Position numbers and translations under genes: made by a program. From the NCBI RefSeq assembly GCF_024345375.1, contig NZ_JAGQAZ010000001.1:62001-126000 (forward strand): a stretch of 64,000 nt of DNA, read 5' to 3'. The stretch comes from Cyanobium sp. WAJ14-Wanaka (GTDB lineage Bacteria > Cyanobacteriota > Cyanobacteriia > PCC-6307 > Cyanobiaceae). Of this stretch, positions 38,570-52,550 are shown in pieces (position 1 is the first letter of the stretch; every line of letters begins with the position of its first letter). The notes under the pieces are model-generated. The model had not been told where the DNA came from, made no database searches, and saw only the letters and a program-made list of their open reading frames with translations.

Positions 38570-40021
38570 GTGAGCGACGCCCAAACCAACGGCAGCTTCG
38601 ATTTCGACGTGATCGTGATCGGGGCTGGCTATGGCGGCTTTGATGCGGCAAAACATGCCGCCGAGCATGGGCTGAGGGTCGCCATTGTGGAGTCGCGCGA
38701 CATGGGCGGCACCTGCGTAAACCGCGGCTGCGTGCCCTCGAAGGCCCTGCTGGCGGCCAGCGGCCGGGTGCGGGAGCTGGCGGATGCGGAGCATCTGGCT
38801 GGTTTTGGCATCCACGCGGCGCCGGTGCGTTTTGAGCGCCAAAAAATTGCCGACCACGCCAACCAACTGGTGGCGACGATTCGCACCAACCTGACCAAGG
38901 CCCTGGAGCGGGCCGGCGCCAAGATTCTTTTGGGCAAGGGCCGGCTCGATGGCCAGCAGCGGGTGGCGGTGCGGGAGGCCAGTGGGGTGGAGCGGGTCTA
39001 TAGCTGCCGCGACGTGATCATTGCCACCGGCTCCGATCCCTTCGTGCCGCCTGGTATCGAGACCGACGGCCGCACGGTGTTCACCAGCGATGAGGCCGTA
39101 AGCCTGGAATGGCTGCCCCGCTGGATCGCGATCATTGGCAGCGGCTACATCGGCCTGGAATTCGCCGATGTCTACACGGCCCTTGGCTGCGAGGTCACGA
39201 TGATTGAGGCCCTCGACAAGGTGATGCCCACCTTTGATCCAGACATTGCCAAGATCGCAGCCCGCCACCTGATTGAAGGCCGTGAAATTGAGGCCCGAGC
39301 AGGGGTGCTAGCCCGCAAGATCACGCCGGGCTGCCCGGTCAAGATTGAATTGGCCGACATGAAAACCAGGGAATACGTGGAAACCCTGGAGGTGGATGCG
39401 GTGCTGGTGGCCACGGGCCGGGTGCCGACCAGCGCTGAATTGAACCTGGCGGCGGTGGGGGTGGAAACCAACCGGGGCTTTATTCCCGTCGACGACAAAT
39501 TGCGGGTGCTGGTGAATGGTGAGCCGGTGCCCCACCTCTGGGCCGTGGGCGATGTAACCGGAAAGATGATGCTGGCCCACACCGCAGCGGCCCAGGGAAC
39601 GGTGGCGGTGGACAACATCCTTGGCCACCCCCGCGAGATTGATTACCGCTCCATTCCGGCGGCCACCTTCACCCATCCGGAGATCAGTTCGGTGGGTCTA
39701 TCGGAAGTTGATGCCAAGGCCCTCGCCGCCAGCGATGGTTTTGAGCTGGGTTCGGTGCGCAGCTACTTCAAGGCCAATTCCAAGGCCCTGGCCGAGCTGG
39801 AGAGCGATGGCCTGATGAAGCTGCTCTTCAACAGAAGCAGTGGCGAAGTGTTGGGCGCCCACATCTATGGCCTGCATGCGGCTGATTTGATCCAGGAGGT
39901 GGCCAATGCGGTGGCCCGGCGCCAGTGCGTTCAGCAGCTGGTAAGGGAGGTGCACACCCACCCCACCCTCAGTGAGGTGGTTGAGGTGGCCTACAAGCAA
40001 GCTGCAGCGATGGTGGCCTGA
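38570..40021 (+). CDS. lpdA: Dihydrolipoyl dehydrogenase
   Basis: A 483-residue flavoprotein. The FAD dinucleotide fold begins [21 protein letters not shown] (about 13-33). The redox disulphide lies in [15 protein letters not shown] (about 47-61), the NAD-binding fold in [16 protein letters not shown] (about 184), and the active-site His in [13 protein letters not shown] near the C-terminus. It reoxidises lipoamide in pyruvate dehydrogenase and glycine cleavage complexes. The GTG at 38570 opens the standard N-terminus. trpC begins 2 bp after its stop, so the pair is cotranscribed. Confidence 0.95.
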
Positions 40022-40022
40022 G

Positions 40023-40907
40023 ATGGAGTTCCGTCGCCGCCCCCCCAATCCCAAGGTGAAGGTGCTCCACCTGGAGTACGCCATCCGCCATGAGGAGAGC
40101 GAACCTCGCTCGATCCTCGAGAAGATTGTTTGGGAAAAGGACCGGGAGGTGGCCTCCGCCCGCGAGCGGGTGCCCCTGGAAAAACTGAAACAGCAGGTGG
40201 CGGATTTGCCCGCCCCCCTCGACTTTGTCGCCGCCCTGAAGGCCAGCTGCCGTAAACCGGCGGTGATTGCGGAGGTGAAAAAGGCCAGCCCCAGCAAGGG
40301 CGTAATCCGCGAAGATTTTGATCCCGTGGCAATTGCTAAGGGCTATGCAGCGGGCGGCGCCAGTTGTCTTTCGGTGCTCACCGATCGGCAGTTTTTCCAG
40401 GGGGGCTTTGAGGTGCTGGTGCAGGTGCGCCAGGCGGTGGAGCTGCCCCTGCTCTGCAAGGACTTCATCCTCAGCCCCTACCAGCTGTATCAGGCCCGGG
40501 CCGCCGGGGCCGATGCGGCCCTATTGATCGCGGCAATTTTGAGCGATCAAGACCTGGGCTATCTGCTGAAGGTGGCCAAGGCCCTGGGGCTGGCGGTGCT
40601 GGTGGAGGTGCACGATGCCGAGGAGCTGGAGCGGGTGCTGGACCTCGATGGGGTGCAGCTGATCGGCATCAACAACCGCAACCTGGCCACCTTTGACACG
40701 GATCTAGCCACCACTGAGCAGCTCACCGCCCTCTATGGCGAACGCATCCGCGCCAAGGGTTGCCTGTTGGTGAGCGAGTCGGGGCTATTCAGCCGCGAAG
40801 ATCTCGATCGCGTCCAGGGCGCCGGCGCCGATGCGGTGCTGGTGGGTGAAGCCCTGATGCGCCAGGCCGATGTGACCGCAGCCCTGGAAACCTTGATTGG
40901 TGGCTGA
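40023..40907 (+). CDS. trpC: Indole-3-glycerol phosphate synthase TrpC
   Basis: A 294-residue (beta/alpha)8 enzyme that closes the indole ring in tryptophan synthesis. [14 protein letters not shown] (catalytic Lys and phosphate site, about 85), [13 protein letters not shown] (catalytic Lys, about 142), and [10 protein letters not shown] and SESGLFS (about 220-260) are family motifs. An N-terminal extension of about 35 residues is common in cyanobacterial TrpC. ATG at 40023 is 2 bp from the lpdA stop; the longer frame back to 39972 lies inside lpdA and is rejected. Confidence 0.95.
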
Positions 40908-41189
40908 GGGCAGCGGTCCCTAGCCCCCTACCTCTAGCCCCGCGACCTATGGGGCTGATTTCGCAGGGTGGAAAGTTAATTGAAGAGCCGTTCTTACTGC
41001 CTGGGAGGCTTGCTCCAATTGTTCTGTGGTCTCCAGGCTTGATGCCATTGGGTGTCTAGAGCAACGCCGTGATCTGGACTTTCCGTGGAGGCCTGGAAGT
41101 TTTACGTCAGTAGTTGGGCTAGTGGTTCTAGGCGTGCTCAGGCATCGCTAAGAACTCGTATCCAACAGCAGGATCAGGGGCTTCAGCAG
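40908..41189. other. Gap at the junction of core genome and AT-richer insert
   Basis: About 280 bp separate trpC and the stop of the giant gene. Besides the weak hairpin I see no coding frame that convinces, no tRNA fragment and no integrase remnant. Base composition shifts to AT-rich near 41.1 kb. A frame from 41085 to 41339 overlaps the giant gene antisense and looks random. Confidence 0.4.
40936..40956 (+). terminator. Weak hairpin after trpC
   Basis: AGCCCC at 40936-40941 can pair with GGGGCT at 40951-40956 about 30 bp after the trpC stop, followed by GATTTC. The T-run is short, so terminator function is uncertain. Confidence 0.35.
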
Positions 41190-44100
41190 CTACACAATAG
41201 GTTGAACTACTGGTGTAATTGCAAAGAGCATGTCATTGAAGTCGCGATCTCCCCGCAAGCCCATATCCTCAAAGGCAAAGTAGCCAGTGCCAAAGGAGAC
41301 ATGCTGAAGATCCTTCCCAAGATTTGCCTCTTTAACTGAAAACAAGATCTCAGACAGGCTATCGATCTGATCCGGCGAAGCTAGCACCTGATTAGGAGTG
41401 ATAAAAAGAGAATATGAGTTTCCCTTAGCAAGTTGAATTGAAGATCTGCTCGTTTGAGCAAAGCCAGGAATGGGCAAACCTGTAATCCCATCTACCGTAT
41501 TCGTCTGCGATCGCCTAAAAGCCTCTCTGGCGTATTCAACGCTACCCGGTTCCAAGGGATTAGTTAGTCTCCCCTTATCTCCAAACAGGAAGTGGCCGTA
41601 AGTGTTATCTACACGAAATAATCCATATCCTGATAGGTTGCTACTGAATCTAGCCACATCGAGATTGAAATCAACATTCGAACTGCCAGCATTGCTTGCA
41701 GCGTAGTAAGTGAGCTCGTCTACCATAAAAAGCTGCCCCTCGCCAGGCGCCAATACAACCTGTGATCCAATGCCAGGAGCTCCAAATACAACACTATTAT
41801 CCAATTCTGGGCTGGAATTAATACTAAAACCTAGGGTAGAAAGCCTCACGTTCCCTTCTATATCTTGCAATGCAAGTGCGAATCGATCAGCGGAGGGCAG
41901 TGTGGTGCCAGCCGCTGTTGCAAGATCTCCAATTGAAATCCCTTCACTGCTTAGAATCGCGCTGGGATTCGAAAAAGCTTCCAATGCTTTTTCCGGGCTA
42001 AGCGCATGCGAATCATAAGATTCGCGAGAGGTAGCGAGATAGCTAAACATACTTTTTGCCAGATTTAGATATGATGGATCTTTTGGCTTTATAGCAATCT
42101 GGCCGTTCTGGATTGAGCCGTCACTATTTACTGGGTACCAAAATAACTGCTCACCAGCCTTAAGATTTGCCCTAGGCATTAAAATCGCCAGCTGCTGGGC
42201 CTGCGACGGCAATTTTTCATCCGTTTCGTATCCAGATTTGTTTGAATAAAATACTCCCTCTACCTCTTGATTCAATGTAATCATATCAGTAGTTGCATAG
42301 AGAAATATGCTGCCTGAACCATCAGCTATTGTTGCGTTAGTGGCATTTTCAAGCTTAAAATTAATTAACTTGTCCGGCAAAGTTATGAAATTAAGATTAG
42401 AGCCAAATTCTACGCTAATTTCATTAACTCCACTTGGAAATCTAAATAAATACCTGTTACTACTGCTATTGATGATATTTTCTTCGTTGACATAAGGTTG
42501 TAGGTACTTGCTAGCATCACTTGGCAAAACCAATTCAACTGTTGCTTCTTTGTCTAAGTTATTCTCGCTTCTCTGCAGGGAAATCTCAATCGATGCAAAA
42601 ATAGACCTTTTTTTTCGATTTCTTAGTGTGGATATATCCTGAGGGATGATGGCTTCATTAATTCTAAAGCCAGCTTTAGTTTCTTCTAGTTGCTCAAGTT
42701 CTTTATTCGAGCGACTAAGGAGCCAGGCGCCTTGAGCCATCACACTTGCAATAACAAGATCATCTTTTAAATCATACTCAAGATTCGTAATCCACATGTT
42801 AAAATTATTGTCATCTCCAGCACCTTGCCATCCAACTGGCTTGAAGGTGCTGGGATAATTCGTGGCCCCCACTGATGCACGCCACGCACCTCCATAGCCA
42901 CTTAGGAATAATTCAGCTTCAGCACTTTCAGTTTTAGGGGCGTATACAACCTGCTGTAGGCTTGCCGTAGCTGGAATTCCATTCTTACCAGACTCTGCCG
43001 CTATACTCCAGTTTAGGCCACCATCTGGGCTATAAATTAGATAAGAGGCTGAGAAATAATCAGCTGTAGGCCTATTTAATTGTTGTATGTACGCGATTTT
43101 AGTGGATGCAACTGTAGCCCAAATTTCGTCTGGGTTATTCGGATTGAATGCAATACCAGTTATTGTATTTCCCTGGACGACCTTCGGCAGATTTGCGGAG
43201 AGATCCTTTAACTGATAAGCCTCTACATTCTTAAACCAGTCTTGCTGTGTGCTTGCTGATGCTTTGCGGCCAAATAGTTTTGCCGTGGGGGTGGGGGTAC
43301 CTCCTACATCTTCAGACTGTAAGAAACTTGCGTATAATGCGTCCCAGCTGTAGGGCTTCTGATCCTTGAACTGAAATGCTTGATTAGACCCTATGGCAAC
43401 TTCAGTGAAGTATCTAGGTTTATCTGTATCTTCGGCTATTAATGAAACAAGCAGCATCTCTCCTAATGTTACCGACTGCCAGTGCGGGAAAACCTGCTCG
43501 TAGATATTGCGCATTCCTGAAAAGACAATGTCTCCAGCGCGGTACTCACTTGTTTCTGCTGGATGATAGAAGGGGTAAGCAGCAGCGCCGTACCAGGTGT
43601 TTTCATAATCAAACCAGTCTTGAAAATTGCGATACTTATCAATGATGCTTAGGTTTAGAAAATCACTAGAGAGAAGCGTGCCTGAATGGTCATATGAATT
43701 CTGCTCTACAATTCCTCTTGCACCATATTGTTGAGAGGCAAAGTAAGCCCTGCTGATGCCATCGCTACCTACGATTCCATCATCAAATCTCGCTATTGCA
43801 CCATCTCCACCTGTGACATTTAACCAGCCAGGCTGATTTCCAAAGCGCCCAACTGCTGTGGCATTATCCTGCATCGCCGTAATGGCAAGGTTGCCAATAC
43901 TGCTCCAATCTGAGCTGAAGCTTTCGGTGATACGTAGGCCATCATTTAAACCTTTCCAGGGCTTTGTTGTGTCGATGTCTTTGCTTGTACCCAGATCTTT
44001 GATATAGATGCCACCATCATCTGATTCGATAATGCGTGTTACCCCAGAGAGCGTTTGCATAAAAGCAATATCTCTGGAATCGGCATGCGGTGCAGTGCCA

Positions 44101-45236
44101 TCGCTGTTTTTATCCTCTTCTTTTGAGGGAAAGAGATTAGTAAATTTTGGTTGAATGCCGCTGAAATCTGTAGCTACGATTGCTCCGGTAGCTCCTAGAT
44201 ATGTCGTAACCCATGTACCATTCTTGAACTCACCTGGCCCCCAATTTCCGCCTGCAAATACCTGTTCTGGGTTTATAGGATTGGAGGCAAAGGATGAATG
44301 AATTGTAGCTTGACCATTTCCAATCCTGCCAAGTACATCTTCTTTTTGCCAGATTAAATTAGTAACCTTTTCATCATAAATAACTTTATTTATTGAGTCA
44401 TAGAGCTCGCTAGCACTAGCTGTCGCCAGGAAGAGAATATCTTTGCCCGTCGCTGGATCTTTTGATGTTGCTACTCGTAACATTGATTTGTCACGGCATA
44501 GCGTCTCTGAGCTGTCTATCAGCTTCCATTCCCTTAAGGGAGCTTGGCTGAGTTCAGAAATTGTTGATGTGTATATACCCTTGCCAATTACAGCCGCATA
44601 AAGGCGACCGGAACTTGATTTAGCAATCGATGATATATTACTACTGGTGGATCCGCTCAGGTTCGCTGCTGCTCCCAGGGTTGTGAGCTTGCCTTCTAAA
44701 TCAATTGAGCCAATGAAGAGACCCGTTTTAGTTCCTGCAACAACAATGTCATCAGCAATCTCTAGGGAGGTGATGGCTTTTCCTTTTAGATTTTCTTGGC
44801 TATTTCCAACATTCGCAATCCATTTTAGGGAGCCGCCGGCAAGCCTTTCTGCAACCTGCAGGGGTTTGTCTATCAAGCCGGACAAATCTCCAAAGCTACT
44901 TGTGGCTCCTTGGCCTGAAATTAGCCACTTGTTATCATCAGAAACCTTTATCTTGGAAATTGATTGAGCTCCTTCGTATCCATTAGAGCCGCTTAGCCAA
45001 GTCCATTGGCCCCATGCATCTGTTGCCCCTGTGTACGGCCTTCCCCACACACCTCCCCCAGCGGCGCCAGCGTAGAGGATGCCATCTTTAGTGTTGTTAT
45101 CCTGCACCATGAAAAGGCTACTAACAGCACCAGTTGCAATGCCGCTGCCCCAAGGATTTCCTATGCTTAAACGTGCTCTGAAGGGATCCTGAATCGGTGC
45201 GGGACCAAGGGGCTTAAACATTTGATCTGTGGCCAT
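41190..45236 (-). CDS. Giant Asp-box/beta-propeller protein with C-terminal DUF4114
   Basis: A 1348-residue protein, counted from Met at 45236 (MATDQMFKPLG). Residues 1-800 resemble VPS10/sialidase-like propellers: repeated short Gly/Trp strands (GGGVWG, GLFIGSI, GIYTS, GGIYI) and one canonical Asp-box, YSPDGGLNWS, near 735. About 870-980 looks Calx-beta-like (ATVELVL, NATIADGSGS). The end, LFITPNQVL through YFAFEDMGLRGDRDFNDMLFAI, is DUF4114, a Ca-binding-type module of large surface proteins. No signal peptide is seen, and type I secretion is a plausible guess. Ser/Asn-rich composition and AT-rich codons differ sharply from the core genes around it. A divergent channel-like gene lies 137 bp away. 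Function unknown. Confidence 0.85.
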   Translation of the reverse strand: MATDQMFKPLGPAPIQDPFRARLSIGNPWGSGIATGAVSSLFMVQDNNTKDGILYAGAAGGGVWGRPYTGATDAWGQWTWLSGSNGYEGAQSISKIKVSDDNKWLISGQGATSSFGDLSGLIDKPLQVAERLAGGSLKWIANVGNSQENLKGKAITSLEIADDIVVAGTKTGLFIGSIDLEGKLTTLGAAANLSGSTSSNISSIAKSSSGRLYAAVIGKGIYTSTISELSQAPLREWKLIDSSETLCRDKSMLRVATSKDPATGKDILFLATASASELYDSINKVIYDEKVTNLIWQKEDVLGRIGNGQATIHSSFASNPINPEQVFAGGNWGPGEFKNGTWVTTYLGATGAIVATDFSGIQPKFTNLFPSKEEDKNSDGTAPHADSRDIAFMQTLSGVTRIIESDDGGIYIKDLGTSKDIDTTKPWKGLNDGLRITESFSSDWSSIGNLAITAMQDNATAVGRFGNQPGWLNVTGGDGAIARFDDGIVGSDGISRAYFASQQYGARGIVEQNSYDHSGTLLSSDFLNLSIIDKYRNFQDWFDYENTWYGAAAYPFYHPAETSEYRAGDIVFSGMRNIYEQVFPHWQSVTLGEMLLVSLIAEDTDKPRYFTEVAIGSNQAFQFKDQKPYSWDALYASFLQSEDVGGTPTPTAKLFGRKASASTQQDWFKNVEAYQLKDLSANLPKVVQGNTITGIAFNPNNPDEIWATVASTKIAYIQQLNRPTADYFSASYLIYSPDGGLNWSIAAESGKNGIPATASLQQVVYAPKTESAEAELFLSGYGGAWRASVGATNYPSTFKPVGWQGAGDDNNFNMWITNLEYDLKDDLVIASVMAQGAWLLSRSNKELEQLEETKAGFRINEAIIPQDISTLRNRKKRSIFASIEISLQRSENNLDKEATVELVLPSDASKYLQPYVNEENIINSSSNRYLFRFPSGVNEISVEFGSNLNFITLPDKLINFKLENATNATIADGSGSIFLYATTDMITLNQEVEGVFYSNKSGYETDEKLPSQAQQLAILMPRANLKAGEQLFWYPVNSDGSIQNGQIAIKPKDPSYLNLAKSMFSYLATSRESYDSHALSPEKALEAFSNPSAILSSEGISIGDLATAAGTTLPSADRFALALQDIEGNVRLSTLGFSINSSPELDNSVVFGAPGIGSQVVLAPGEGQLFMVDELTYYAASNAGSSNVDFNLDVARFSSNLSGYGLFRVDNTYGHFLFGDKGRLTNPLEPGSVEYAREAFRRSQTNTVDGITGLPIPGFAQTSRSSIQLAKGNSYSLFITPNQVLASPDQIDSLSEILFSVKEANLGKDLQHVSFGTGYFAFEDMGLRGDRDFNDMLFAITPVVQPIV

Positions 45237-45373
45237 ATTGTTGAAAGGTTTAAAACTCAATAAAGTATACAAATGGACCGACGTGATGTCAAGATTTACT
45301 AGGGGGTATGCCCCAATTGATTGCGCACCTCGCATCAAGCATCCATAATTCAGGCAATCTTCTAGGTGCTCAC
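45237..45373. promoter_or_regulatory. Divergent promoter region of the island genes
   Basis: These 137 bp lie between the start codons of the giant gene (minus) and the channel-like gene (plus), so both promoters must be here or overlap. The plus gene has AGGTG 5 bp before its ATG; the minus gene has no obvious ribosome site. A GGGG-TATG-CCCC inverted repeat is at 45303-45314. Confidence 0.45.
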
Positions 45374-46513
45374 ATGCAGCTCAAACCTAGGCTGGCACAG
45401 CTGTATCTCGCGCTGTTCACTTCACTACTGATCATTGGGTTCTTTCAGTTCAGCGCTCCAAGGCTGTTGCCGCACAATCCCCAGCCCCATGATACCCCAA
45501 GTACTAGAAGCTACGTCTCAGTTGAGACCATCAACGAAAAAGGAAAGCCTGCCGATCTTGATATCAATTTGACGGTCAGAGTCAGAACAATTCAAAATAT
45601 CAACCTTCCTGAACAAAGCTTTAGCGCTGAAGGCTTCTATTGGCTCCAATGGGGCCAGGAGGTTCAGGATATGATTGCCCGTCACAAAATCGCTTTAGAT
45701 GGGATCGTCGAGATTGTCAATCTTGTTGATCGTGATTCAACTGTAATCGAGCGCACTGCAATATTTAGCAGGCAGATTGGTGGCAGGAAGGTGTATTCGT
45801 TGTCAGTGTTTTATTCAGGTAAGTTCTTCATCCCTAATGTTAATCTCGAGAACTCTCCCTTTGATCGGCTGATCTTGCCAATCATCATCGAAGTAGATGA
45901 TAGTGAGCTCAGCAGTGAATCGAGATTTGTATCTCTGAGCCCAGAATTGAATACCACCGCCGACCCGATAGCCGGTGAATTTTCAAATATAAGTGGCTTT
46001 CGCCTTATCAAAACCAGCTGGCAACGGGCTGTTGCTAGCTATCTGTCTAGTCCTGATGCTCCAACGGGAAGCCAGACAAGGTACAGCAGGGCAACTGCTC
46101 TTTTTACTTATGACCCAGGCTTCTGGGCTGTTTTCGTTCAGTGGATATTGCCGCTCGTGGTGGTTATGGGCATCGTGGTAATGGCTCCTTCCCTGGATGG
46201 GAAGTTGGGCGACTCGCGCCTGGCGATCCCAACAGCTGCCTTGCTGACATTAATATTCCTGCATCTTGGCTATAAGGCAAGCTTCCCTGAGGTGCCTTAT
46301 CTTACTTACCTTGATCAACTCTATGCATACAGCTATTGCGTCTGCATTTTGATCTACATTCTTTTCGTTTTGTCGTCTAATGCCCATTCTCGTGGTAATC
46401 GCGTTGGGGATGGGGGTAATTATTTAATGCAGCAGGATAGGTTCGAATTGATTGTCCAGGTCTCCATTGTGGTTGGTTATGTATGTGTTGCCGTTCTCGG
46501 TTGGCATGCCTGA
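45374..46513 (+). CDS. Pentameric ligand-gated ion channel-like protein
   Basis: A 379-residue protein with the whole layout of prokaryotic Cys-loop-family channels. An N-terminal hydrophobic segment (8-25) acts as a signal or anchor. The extracellular beta domain (about 45-245) has VRVRTIQNINL, FSAEGFYWLQWGQ and the SPFDRLILPIIIE stretch, equal to the FPFD motif, but no Cys-loop cysteines, as usual in bacteria. Four helices follow: M1 about 250-272 with Pro260, M2 about 282-302 (RLAIPTAALLTLIFLHL), M3 from PYLTYLDQLYAYSY, and M4 about 357-376. The M2-M3 link SFPEVPYLTYLD is especially typical. Ligand and ion are unknown. ATG 45374 follows AGGTG by 5 bp. AT-rich codons suggest transfer. Confidence 0.82.
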   Translation: MQLKPRLAQLYLALFTSLLIIGFFQFSAPRLLPHNPQPHDTPSTRSYVSVETINEKGKPADLDINLTVRVRTIQNINLPEQSFSAEGFYWLQWGQEVQDMIARHKIALDGIVEIVNLVDRDSTVIERTAIFSRQIGGRKVYSLSVFYSGKFFIPNVNLENSPFDRLILPIIIEVDDSELSSESRFVSLSPELNTTADPIAGEFSNISGFRLIKTSWQRAVASYLSSPDAPTGSQTRYSRATALFTYDPGFWAVFVQWILPLVVVMGIVVMAPSLDGKLGDSRLAIPTAALLTLIFLHLGYKASFPEVPYLTYLDQLYAYSYCVCILIYILFVLSSNAHSRGNRVGDGGNYLMQQDRFELIVQVSIVVGYVCVAVLGWHA

Positions 46514-46682
46514 ATCTTGCTGGCTCGCTGATAGTTAGATCCACACCCATTTATTGCGCCCCTGGCAAATCTTGATTGGAGTTTGAATTGGATGTGCGCT
46601 CCACTCAAGTCGGGCCTAATTCCCGGCGTGGGGTAGTCGTTTGGGGAGGGCGCTTTGCGGAAGATTGGCCTAGGAAAACCAC

Positions 46683-46720
46683 AAAAAGCCCCTGGCCGGT
46701 CGCTTTGACTGACCAGGGGC
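46683..46720 (-). terminator. Intrinsic terminator of rpsD
   Basis: Read on the minus strand, GCCCCTGGTC and its partner arm (46688-46720) form a stem of about 13 bp with a short AAAG loop, followed by TTTTT at 46687-46683. It begins 25 bp after the rpsD stop codon. Confidence 0.85.
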
Positions 46721-46744
46721 ATAGACGATAACAACGGTCGAGAA

Positions 46745-47353
46745 TCAGACCTTGCGGCTGTAGAACTCCACCACCAGGAGTTCGTTGATCTCAAGGGCGA
46801 CCCATTCGCGTTCGCACTTGCTGATCACCTTGGCGGTGAGTTTGTTCTTGTCGAGCTCAAGGTGGGGCGGGATGTTGGCCAGGCCTGGGAATGCCAGGTT
46901 GCCTTCAGCCAACAACTTGCTTTGCTTGCGCTCGCGGATGGCGACCTGGTCGCCGGCCTTGCACTGGAAGCTGGCGATGTCCACCACGCGGCCGTTCACG
47001 GTCACGTGGCCATGGTTCACCAACTGGCGGGCACCGGGAACGGTGGGGCCAAAGCCAAGGCGGAAGCAGACGTTGTCGAGCCTGTTTTCCAAAAGCTTGA
47101 GCAGGTTGGTTCCGGTGGAACCCTCCTGGGCACGGGCTTTCTTCACGTAGCGAACCAGCTGACGTTCGGAAATGCCGTAGTTGAAGCGAAGTTTTTGCTT
47201 CTCTTCGAGGCGGATGGCGTATTCGGAGCGCTTGCGACGGGCTTGGCCGTGCTGACCGGGGGGATAAGACCGCTTGGCGGACTTACGGGTGAGACCGGGA
47301 AGGTCTCCCAAGCGCCGCGTGATCCTCAAGCGAGGGCCGCGGTAGCGAGACAT
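46745..47353 (-). CDS. rpsD: 30S ribosomal protein S4
   Basis: A 202-residue rRNA-binding protein that nucleates 30S assembly at the 5' domain of 16S rRNA. It opens [16 protein letters not shown], as in cyanobacteria and plastids, and has an S4 domain at about 90-150 ([34 protein letters not shown]). It stands alone rather than in the alpha operon, usual for cyanobacteria. A strong terminator follows. yidD starts 89 bp away in the opposite direction. Confidence 0.97.
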
Positions 47354-49725: not shown

Positions 49726-50466
49726 ATGGCCAAAAAGCTATTAGCAGAGGCTTTTGGTACATTTTGGTTGGTGTTTGGAGGTTGCGGTAGTGCTGCAATC
49801 GCCGCCAATTTCCCCTATCAGACGGGTGCAGATATCGCGCCAGGAAACCCCTTTGGTCTGGGTTTTCTAGGTGTGGCCTTGGCCTTTGGTCTCACGGTGG
49901 TGACCATGGCCTACGCGATCGGCCATATTTCCGGATGTCATTTGAATCCCGCGGTGAGCTTCGGCCTCTGGGCCAGTGGTCGCATGAAGGGTTCCGATCT
50001 GCTTCCCTACATCGGGGCCCAGGTGGCGGGCGGAGTTCTGGCTGGCGGTTTTATTAAATTGGTAGTGGCGGGTGGCCCGGCCTTCCAATTGGTAATGGCA
50101 GGTAGTAACCCCTTGGCTACCAATGGTTGGGGTGCCCATTCCCCTGGTGGCTATGGCTTCTGGGCTGCCCTGGTCGTGGAGCTGGTGCTTACCTTCTTTT
50201 TCCTGCTGGTGATCATTGGGGCTACTGATCGTCTGGCGCCTGTCGGTTTTGCCGGTGCCGCCATTGGCCTAGCCCTAGCCCTGATCCACATGATCAGTAT
50301 TCCAGTTACCAATACCTCAGTGAATCCCGCCCGCAGCACCGGAGTGGCCCTATGGGTTGGCGGTGAGGCAGTTGGTCAGCTGTGGCTGTTCTGGTTGGCT
50401 CCTATCGCTGGTGCCCTTTTGGCTGGTTGGTTTTACCGCAATGTGCTGAGTTCCGAGACCAACTGA
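49726..50466 (+). CDS. aqpZ: Aquaporin Z-like water channel
   Basis: A 246-residue MIP-family channel with six helices. Both half-helix motifs are intact: [14 protein letters not shown] (about 61) and [10 protein letters not shown] (about 198). The start [23 protein letters not shown] is nearly identical to known AqpZ. His and Arg filter residues are present at the expected places, so it conducts water. ATG 49726 is chosen over GTG 49708, which adds six unsupported residues. The 3' end overlaps the convergent lyase gene by 34 bp. Confidence 0.94.
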
Positions 50467-51680
50467 TCGATCTCGGTTTCAGTTGTGCTGATGTGGGTGC
50501 AGGCCCTTAGGCAATGGGGATCATCCAGGCTGCGGATCCAGATCCCCTTTGCCCCCAGCTGCTTCACCAGCTCCTCTGGGTTGTGCCCCTCCACCTGGAA
50601 GCTCACGAGCCCAGCTGGGGGGGCACTTTCCAGCAGGGTGCTGATGCCATCAATGGCCTGCAGGCCGCTCCAGAGCCTGTGGCTTAGGCCTTGAATTACG
50701 GCTAGCCGCTCCTGGGCGCTGCCCTCCGCATCGAGCAGTGCCAGGGAGGTTTGGAGCCCCGCAAATAAGGGCAGGCAGGAGGTGGCAACCTCGAAGCGGC
50801 GGCTATCGGCGTGGAAGCCGCTTTGGCCGTTGCTTTCGTGGCTGAGGCTGCGCCAGCCGATCAAGGTGGGTTGGGCCTCCCTAACGACCCGTTCGGAAAG
50901 GGCCATTGCCCCGAGGCCTTCGGGGCCGCAGCACCACTTGTGGCCGGTGCAGGCATAGATGTCGGCGGCGGCGGCAGCCTCCGCCACCGGCATTGCCCCA
51001 AGCGATTGGGCCGCATCCACCAGCAGCCAGGGCTGGCGCGGATGGTGCTGCAATTGTTTTGCCACCGCCGCAATCGGCATCAATTGGCCGGTGTTCCATA
51101 GCAGGTGGGAGAGCACCACCAAGCGGGTGGCAGGGCCTAGGGCCTGCTCGAGCCGCTCAAGCACCCTGGCCTCGGCATCGGCTGGGGTCTGGCGCAGATC
51201 GGCCACCGGCAGGCTGGCGATCTGGAGACCCTCGCGGCGGGCCAATTCCCGGCAGGCGGCCACCACCCCTGGGTGTTCGCAATCACTGATCAACAGCTCA
51301 TCGCCGCGCTGCCAGGGCAAGCCCCAGAGGGGCAGCACGCAGCCGGAGGTCACATTTTCAGTAAAGGCCACCCGCTGGCTTGGCACCCCAAACTCCTGGG
51401 CCAACCGCTGCCGAAGGCGGGCGCTGGTGGCCTCGATGAAGGGCCACACATCACCGGTGAAGGGCCCCAGCTCCTGGATCCTGCGCCAGCTGGCGGTGAT
51501 CGCTTCTAGGGAGGCTTCCGGCAGGGGCCCCTGGCCGCCGTAGTTGAAGTAGGTCTTGTTGGCTAGGGCGGGGAGCTGCTGGCGAAAGCGCTCCGCAAAG
51601 GCCCCCTTTGGGGGCGCTTGCTTCTGCCCAAAGGATTCCGACAAGGCAGACCAAAACCAGCTGCCTTCAGCATGGCCCAT
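50433..51680 (-). CDS. Class V aminotransferase, L-cysteine/cystine lyase (C-DES)-like
   Basis: An approximately 415-residue PLP enzyme. [53 protein letters not shown] and [16 protein letters not shown] (with the PLP Lys near residue 240) match the cyanobacterial cystine C-S lyase C-DES closely and differ from SufS by lacking its persulphide-loop Cys motif. The known enzyme releases a persulphide from cystine that can feed Fe-S clusters. The start is unsure: ATG 51680 overlaps the divergent mscS start, while TTG 51644 would not. It also overlaps aqpZ at its 3' end. Confidence 0.82.
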
Positions 51681-52550
51681 CCATGCTGGGGGTGCTTTGT
51701 CGCCCTTGCTTCCGTGATTCCAGGCTCGCTTGCCCTGCCCGATCTGGTGCTGCTGGTGGCCAATGCGCTGGTGCCTTTTCTGTTCAAGCTCCTGGGGGCC
51801 GTGGCCCTTTGGGTTGTGGGCGGTTGGTTGATTCACCTGGCGGTGCGGGTGCTGCGCAAGGGCCTGCGCCATAGCAGCCTCGACCTAACCGTGGCCGGCT
51901 ACCTGGTGGCCATCCTCTCGGCGGTGCTGAGGGTGATCCTGGTGGTGGCGATATTGGGCTTCTTTGGCATTCCCACCGCCAGTTTTGCGGCCCTCCTGGC
52001 CGGCGCTGGCGTGGCAATTGGTGCCGCCTGGAGCGGCATGTTGGGCAATTTTGCGGCGGGTGTTTTCCTGCAGTTGTTTCGGCCCTTCAGTGTCGGAGAT
52101 GTGATTTGTGCGGCTGGTGTAACCGGCACCGTTGAGGAAATTGCCATGTTTTCCACCTCAATTCTGGGCCCCGATCACGTCCGCAACATTGTTCCTAACG
52201 GCAAGCTATTTGGCGATACGATTCAAAATTTTTCAGCGCATCCCTACCGGCGTGTGGAGGTTTTTGCCCAGCTTGATCACAGCGCTGATCTAGATCGGGC
52301 AATCTTGCTGATCCGCGAGGGCCTAGGTCAGGTTGCCAACCAGATACCAGGCCTGGAGCCGGAAGTGGCCGTATTTGAGCTAAACGATCGGGGCCCAAAG
52401 TTGGTGGTGCGCCCCTTTACCCCCAACGCCCACTACGTCCAGGTTTTATTTGACACCAATCGGATGCTGGTGGAGGTGTTGGGCCGCAATGGCTTCCCAA
52501 TCCCGAAGCTGCAGCTGGCAATGGTGGCTGAAGCAGAGAACGCCAGTTAG
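51672..52550 (+). CDS. Small-conductance mechanosensitive channel MscS family
   Basis: A 292-residue protein with three helices (about 19-47, 73-92 and 100-130). The pore helix AALLAGAGVAIGAAWSGMLGNFAAGVF has the Gly/Ala packing pattern of MscS TM3. A beta domain follows, with FRPFSVGDVICAAGVTGTVEEI, NIVPNGKLFGDTIQNFS and a cytoplasmic alpha/beta end. It releases solutes at hypo-osmotic shock. ATG 51672 or GTG 51716 could start it. The former overlaps the divergent lyase start by 9 bp, so at least one start is probably wrong. Confidence 0.9.
   Translation: MAHPCWGCFVALASVIPGSLALPDLVLLVANALVPFLFKLLGAVALWVVGGWLIHLAVRVLRKGLRHSSLDLTVAGYLVAILSAVLRVILVVAILGFFGIPTASFAALLAGAGVAIGAAWSGMLGNFAAGVFLQLFRPFSVGDVICAAGVTGTVEEIAMFSTSILGPDHVRNIVPNGKLFGDTIQNFSAHPYRRVEVFAQLDHSADLDRAILLIREGLGQVANQIPGLEPEVAVFELNDRGPKLVVRPFTPNAHYVQVLFDTNRMLVEVLGRNGFPIPKLQLAMVAEAENAS

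Follow-up and report, generated by a model that had tools for sequence, protein, structure and literature searches.

A divergent, Cys-less pentameric ligand-gated ion channel homologue in Cyanobium sp. WAJ14-Wanaka and its relatives without the canonical pre-M1 arginine

In animals, pentameric ligand-gated ion channels (pLGICs) serve as the receptors of fast neurotransmission. In GLIC, the proton-gated channel of Gloeobacter, and in nicotinic receptors, an acid at position -2' makes the pore ring cation-selective; to our knowledge, the natural ligands of bacterial pLGICs are largely unknown. Conservation across the superfamily reaches 100% for the Pro-loop proline, 77% for the M1 proline, and 88% for the M2-M3 proline (PMC4795631, Table 1), with 79% for a basic residue at 0' and 75% for leucine at 9' (PMC4795631). 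Also listed among the most conserved residues are an acid in the Pro-loop (93%) and an arginine shortly before M1 (the pre-M1 arginine, 94%), which are joined by a salt bridge (Jaiteh et al. 2016, PMC4795631), and the passages of Tasneem et al. 2004 (PMC549065) used here call the interaction of Pro-loop acid and pre-M1 base apparently universal. The same passages describe both cation and anion motifs among bacterial pLGICs. Members from Synechococcus were listed in both of these studies and have therefore been published since 2004. ELIC, the Erwinia/Dickeya pLGIC, is activated by primary amines (PMC3119659).

Here, we show that a gene in a window of 64,000 nucleotides (i.e., the whole stretch of DNA analysed) from Cyanobium sp. 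WAJ14-Wanaka encodes a divergent pLGIC homologue, a real member of this known superfamily (Table 1). ELIC is its best sequence-profile match over both domains and, like the window protein, is Cys-less with a short M3-M4 link; in our reading of the phmmer alignment, an aromatic pair of ELIC loop C aligns with Y223 and Y237. The two differ in that ELIC keeps the pre-M1 arginine and lacks a proline at 4' (again by alignment reading), the window protein showing the opposite. GLIC, also cyanobacterial, is the best structural match (Z 22.7) and shares the acid at -2' and the M2 length, whereas its identity to the window protein is only 13-15%; in GLIC-type rows both YPFD and the pre-M1 arginine are intact, and the window protein is set apart by its proline at 4', phenylalanine at 13', and arginine at 0'. 

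Table 1 Features of the pLGIC gene and its surroundings in the window
Feature	Coordinates	Strand	Remarks
pLGIC-family coding sequence (P0001)	45374..46513	+	379 aa + stop; profile match, AlphaFold2 model, structural superposition
Possible N-terminal extension (401 aa version)	45308..45373	+	In-frame upstream ATG
N-terminal hydrophobic helix, residues 4-24	45383..45445	+	Model secondary structure; low-confidence region after helix
Predicted extracellular beta domain, residues 47-248	45512..46117	+	AlphaFold2 model
Pro-loop motif S161-P162-F163-D164	45854..45865	+	Sequence and homologue alignments
P248, aligned with the place of the canonical pre-M1 arginine (arginine absent)	46115..46117	+	Alignments
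Predicted M1 helix, residues 250-273, includes P260	46121..46192	+	AlphaFold2 model
Predicted pore-lining M2 helix, residues 276-302	46199..46279	+	Model and homologue register
D280, predicted selectivity-ring acid	46211..46213	+	Acidic in 49/49 homologues
Predicted M3 helix, residues 312-344	46307..46405	+	AlphaFold2 model
Predicted M4 helix, residues 347-378	46412..46507	+	AlphaFold2 model
Strain-specific AT-rich islet, ~5.8 kb	40912..46743		45.9% GC; flanks 64.3% and 62.8%
Divergent neighbour on islet, C-terminal DUF4114 domain	41190..45236	-	1348 aa from ATG at 45236
Promoter-like site TTGACA-17-TATACT for DUF4114 gene	45264..45292	-	Consensus match alone

An earlier note on this DNA had proposed a pLGIC homologue from its motifs, and these were recovered in an open frame with exact coordinates and an alternative in-frame ATG at 45308. 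The extracellular part carries W90 and W93, the FPFD-like motif is S161-P162-F163-D164 followed by RLILPIIIE, P260 is the M1 proline, ALLTLIFL is seen in M2, and SFPEVPYLTYLD is present as named there. Of the residues typical of the superfamily, the protein holds the prolines of the Pro-loop (P162), M1 (P260), and M2-M3 (P305), together with R282 at 0' and L291 at 9'. The cysteine pair that flanks the Pro-loop in metazoan Cys-loop receptors is absent, as had been claimed: the sole cysteines (322, 324, and 371) all lie in M3/M4. Four relatives (L052, L059, L070, and L084) have two extracellular-domain cysteines 7-8 residues apart, which is not Cys-loop spacing. In the model, residues 4-24 of the window protein may represent a putative signal peptide or membrane anchor.

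Searches with the query alone were nearly blank. Pfam returned 0 families at E ≤ 1, PHROGs gave no accepted family, all NCBIfam LGIC matches were sub-threshold (LGIC_1 at E = 0.089, far under its cut-off), phmmer against PDB sequences reached ELIC at a marginal E = 0.0021, and a profile-free scan of the genome contigs found nothing where later profiles succeeded. A profile built from 24 sequences recovered by the homologue search in 99 relatives (A2) matched ELIC over both domains (E = 1.4 × 10−16) and GLIC-type entries from E = 1.5 × 10−12 among the PDB sequences, and a 78-row profile (A3) matched ELIC at E = 2.2 × 10−19. The search with neurotransmitter-channel HMMs that the earlier note had suggested was thus negative for the Pfam profiles against the query alone and positive, at full length to ELIC and GLIC, for the family-built profile. 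Pfam Neur_chan_memb matches 10 of the 24 A2 sequences at E ≤ 0.1 (best 1.4 × 10−5), and by these matches the divergent family is seen poorly by Pfam rather than wholly missed.

AlphaFold2, run on one chain with the 78-row alignment, predicted an extracellular domain of beta strands together with four long helices, arranged in the order expected for a pLGIC subunit (pLDDT 86.9, pTM 0.80). Foldseek gave a best E of 1.1 × 10−18, its 50 listed rows being all GLIC, GLIC chimeras, DeCLIC, or sTeLIC; like Foldseek, VIA-align 2 placed GLIC first (rmsd 3.2, 282 residues aligned), and sTeLIC, GluCl, GABA-A, and alpha7 nAChR subunits were among the structural matches in the rows shown by these two programs. 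The note had also called for a predicted pentamer to be compared with GLIC and ELIC, and in this single-chain prediction the beta domain plus four-helix subunit superposes on GLIC. An unrelated membrane protein with motifs arising by chance would agree with the empty Pfam result and the marginal phmmer value; against it stand the A2 match across both domains and the structural Z of 22.7, so that profile, model, and superposition together rule it out unless the model is wrong, and we give this reading practically no weight.

We assigned the pore register by comparing the span from 0' to the M2-M3 proline (23'). This span is 24 residues long, without gaps, in three proteins: the query, the canonical pLGIC of the same genome, and L116, a near-copy of GLIC that matches Glr4197 chains of the PDB by phmmer at E values as low as 3.4 × 10−227. 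The equal span in three proteins sets R282 at 0' and D280 at -2', where D280 aligns with the glutamate of GLIC's E-A-N. M2 of the query then reads D280 (-2'), S (-1'), R282 (0'), A284 (2'), P286 (4'), and A288 (6'), followed in the outer part by L291 (9'), F295 (13'), H (15'), and L298 (16'). The earlier note had held that no acidic ring could be assigned with confidence; this is corrected by D280, whose place is acidic in 49/49 homologues. Its view that selectivity was open is narrowed rather than dismissed: cation-selective pLGICs characteristically have an acidic residue at the inner M2 end (-2'/-1'), and the D280 ring predicts that the window channel would be cation-selective, by analogy with GLIC and the nicotinic receptors.

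The homologues from the protein search (n = 49, the distant L021 and L023 excluded) keep the pore strictly, with acid at -2', arginine at 0', proline at 4', and leucine at 9' in all 49, threonine at 6' in 47, phenylalanine at 13' in 45, and glutamine at 15' and 16' in 48 and 37, respectively. Each of the Pro-loop proline and phenylalanine, the M1 proline, and the M2-M3 proline is likewise present in 49/49. The query departs from most of these relatives in lacking threonine at 6' and glutamine at 15' and 16', and its residues at 2', 6', 9', 13', and 16' are all non-polar (A, A, L, F, and L). Of the 30 homologue loci in the 99 relatives, four (L022, L024, L025, and L030) were left unaligned. Because the further set of 80 named loci was chosen by patterns containing M2 letters, its M2 counts are inflated (proline at 4', phenylalanine at 13', and D/E at -2' in 80/80; QQ in 79/80). 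As 22 of the 49 homologues share an identical core with named ORFs, we counted the other 27 separately: acid at -2', arginine at 0', proline at 4', and leucine at 9' occur in 27, threonine at 6' in 25, and phenylalanine at 13' in 23, and 27/27 keep the Pro-loop proline and phenylalanine, the M1 proline, the -2' acid, R0', L9', and the M2-M3 proline.

By sequence alignment, the query has P248, preceded by D247, at the place of the canonical arginine, which lies 12 positions N-terminal to the proline of M1. The arginine is found in 0/49 homologues, 0/27 of the non-overlapping ones, and 2/80 named family rows, compared with 24/24 canonical cyanobacterial pLGICs (found with PF02931; L124 of 25 loci left out). 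The acid in the fourth place of the Pro-loop, D164 in the query, occurs in 29/49 homologues, 41/80 family rows, and 24/24 canonical proteins. An arginine or lysine at place 247, one before the canonical position and a candidate substitute for it in the salt bridge, is present in 23/49 homologues, and in the 80 rows such a base accompanies an acid at 164 in 24 of 41 cases versus 14 of 39 without the acid, a weak association that is uncorrected for relatedness (Fisher p = 0.048). These sequences form a coherent divergent family, mostly picocyanobacterial in our sample, without the canonical arginine and with a proline at 4'; the acid/base contact is what Tasneem et al. call, in the passages used, apparently universal. 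Since a Synechococcus WH7803 gene (L074) belongs to this family, the published Synechococcus pLGICs are likely of the same kind. No report of a picocyanobacterial pLGIC family was found in the literature searched, subscription papers lying outside its scope.

The distant L021 and L023 both have arginine at the canonical place and proline at 4', and neither has the -2' acid; the combination speaks against a sharply bounded family and suggests that the proline at 4' may be older than it. L135/L023 is a second pLGIC of a GLIC-bearing genome (G091), with canonical arginine and proline at 4', and is a possible bridge between the canonical pLGICs and the divergent family.

A quick tree split the 80 family rows from the 24 canonical rows by one branch (SH-aLRT 99, to be read with a long-branch warning); it left out six short ORFs of 84 and L124 of the 25 canonical loci. 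The nearest homologue of the query is L138, from another genus (44% identity), followed by L139 (36%). Three pLGIC genes are present in the window genome: the query, a paralogue of 35% identity (G000:C1:786696) that lies far from it on the contig, and the canonical L128 (G000:C1:359520-360107; PF02931 E = 6.7 × 10−18), which has FPFD, the pre-M1 arginine, and phenylalanine at 9'. The picocyanobacterial background proposed in the earlier note agrees with the grouping of the second copy with records named Cyanobium and Synechococcaceae, and the occurrence is sporadic as stated there, with a homologue in 24/99 relatives and, within the taxonomic family, in 120/400 genomes from 18/59 genera. By record title, relatives extend to Halieaceae, Myxococcota, and Methylococcales.

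The end branch of the query (1.58) is the longest among the 80 family rows, the median over all 104 rows being 0.092. Together with the loss of common pore residues, this branch length means that the protein could have lost conduction or turned into an accessory subunit, and whether the window member still conducts is our main doubt. An accessory subunit, assembling with the second family member, or one that no longer conducts would be in line with two family copies in one genome, the non-polar pore, and the very long branch. However, the frame is open, D-2', R0', L9', and both key prolines are kept, and the two genes are far apart and only 35% identical. Moreover, the odd pore residues are shared in part by the nearest homologues (A6' and H15' in L138, with L139 also departing at 16'), so that the change belongs partly to a small clade and not to the decay of one gene. 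We therefore regard an accessory or non-conducting role as rather unlikely.

The gene lies on an AT-rich islet and has 47.3% GC, compared with 60.2% for L138. A search with rpsD located 15 other genomes of the genus, and the corresponding stretch was compared in five of them. In all five, the counterpart of window 39972-40907 directly adjoins that of rpsD (46745-47353), and nothing homologous to the pLGIC or to the DUF4114 gene lies in between. DNA homology with the congeners ends at about 40897-40911 and resumes at 46744. From this comparison the islet was probably acquired, a gain in this strain being the simpler reading, although the congeners may have lost it instead. The best direct repeat at the edges (40888-40907 and 46567-46586) is 80% identical over 20 bases, and no convincing insertion signature was found there. 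Foreign DNA misassembled into the genome would also give a GC of 45.9% between flanks of 62.8-64.3% and absence from the five congeners; the islet, however, sits inside a 1.2-Mb contig with homologous sequence up to both edges, and the genome is rated 99.93% complete and 0.03% contaminated, which makes a misassembly extremely improbable.

The divergently oriented DUF4114 gene has its longest ORF beginning at a TTG (45338), upstream of the promoter-like site, and the ATG listed in Table 1 is the likelier start. Promoter-like sites number 4 in the 2-kb region, with 2.3 expected from shuffles. We considered this neighbour as a conserved partner of the pLGIC and rejected it, as the pairing is not kept: no match to the DUF4114 protein was found in the five other genomes searched (G002, G009, G010, G342, and G424), including that of L138.

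Gene neighbours of the relatives offered further hints. An ORF similar to a urea-type substrate-binding protein adjoins or overlaps the channel frame in 22/80 named loci; 21 of these ORFs share the strand of the channel, and the one in L077 is convergent to it. By our reading of the tree, all 22 belong to one clade (L080 not being in the tree); some come from metagenome bins and may carry wrong taxon labels, with near-identical proteins appearing in records titled as Verrucomicrobia and as Gammaproteobacteria. Two example binding proteins scored 480 and 437 bits against TIGR03407 (UrtA), below the cut-off of 492.75, and matched Peripla_BP_5 (Pfam) strongly. The gene order varies, the binding-protein gene standing behind the channel in the three marine Synechococcus loci (L073, L074, and L076), and this variation favours a functional link. 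In Synechococcus WH7803, the gene beside or overlapping the pLGIC is of a urea-type substrate-binding, lipoprotein-like kind (L074:5764-8192). Fused or neighbouring periplasmic binding domains have already been reported for other bacterial pLGICs, in the passages of Tasneem et al. (PMC549065) used here, so the link as such is not new.

In another five of the 80 loci (L097, L101, L102, L103, and L106), the channel lies downstream, on the same strand, of genes for a pyridoxal decarboxylase, an uncharacterised protein, and a transporter of the MFS type. All five decarboxylases score over the NCBIfam histidine decarboxylase cut-off of 305 (358.7 to 389.3 bits); among the four loci looked at for the transporter, it was identified in L097, L102, and L103, with a reverse ORF in its place in L101. 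The cluster spans L102:1340-6966 in one case, and its loci are freshwater picocyanobacterial records; a second, partial pLGIC frame of the family lies upstream of it at L103:2-691 and L106:1-702. No report of a link between decarboxylase and pLGIC was found in the literature searched.

Neither a urea-type binding protein nor a histidine decarboxylase stands beside the window gene. A search for relatives of the L074 binding protein found none in the window genome and two in G001; no histidine decarboxylase over the cut-off was found in the window genome, which gave two weak sub-cut-off matches, nor in any control genome. An aminotransferase-like gene lies at 50433-51872 on the minus strand of the window, and a gene of the same cluster is near the pLGIC in L073, L074, and L076. 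A similar gene lies directly upstream of the pLGIC in L138; these placements could reflect a shared background order.

The neighbours of the relatives suggest small nitrogen compounds (amines, urea, and amides) as ligands in those relatives, and not for the window gene itself. A broader proposal is that the family comprises amine- or urea-type receptors in periplasmic signalling modules, one clade having its own urea-type binding protein and another combining a bacterial maker of histamine or a related amine with an exporter and a receptor, all gating without the contact between Pro-loop acid and pre-M1 arginine; the window gene would then be a rapidly evolving member of the family, spread by horizontal transfer and responding to a ligand of its own. 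We regard this proposal, taken as a whole, as doubtful.

Considering all of the above, we think it likely that the product of the gene is a single subunit of a periplasm-facing, cation-passing pLGIC that lacks the Cys-loop cysteines and belongs to the divergent bacterial family. Five copies of the window protein would assemble, most likely as a homopentamer, with the beta domain facing the periplasm. A small solute would bind at the subunit interface, close to the aromatic residues Y223 and Y237 of loop C, and open the M2-lined pore, gated near L291 (9') and F295 (13'), which would pass cations owing to the D280 ring. Since P248 occupies the arginine place and follows D247, coupling of binding to opening would have to do without the usual salt bridge. 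The physiological outcome might be a short-lived leak of cations, either signalling the solute or reacting to it. A pH-gated channel of the thylakoid membrane that detects the pH of the lumen, much as GLIC detects that of the outside, draws on the cyanobacterial host and the proton-gated GLIC as best structural match and is otherwise speculation; it is very unlikely given that, by record title, relatives occur in non-photosynthetic bacteria. As for the chemotaxis reading of Tasneem et al. (in the passages used), the MCP signalling domain PF00015 was found in 7/14 control genomes and not in the window genome, making MCP-based chemotaxis unlikely here.

The window gene alone is of moderate interest, as bacterial and Synechococcus pLGICs are already known. 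The family as a whole bears on wider questions. Standard profiles see it poorly, so that bacterial pLGICs are under-counted, and the gene neighbours of its members supply ligand candidates (urea or amides, and histamine) for bacterial channels. Finally, the contact between the Pro-loop acid and the pre-M1 arginine is treated as near-universal in gating, and a large natural family without the arginine would provide a test of whether this contact is needed or can be replaced.
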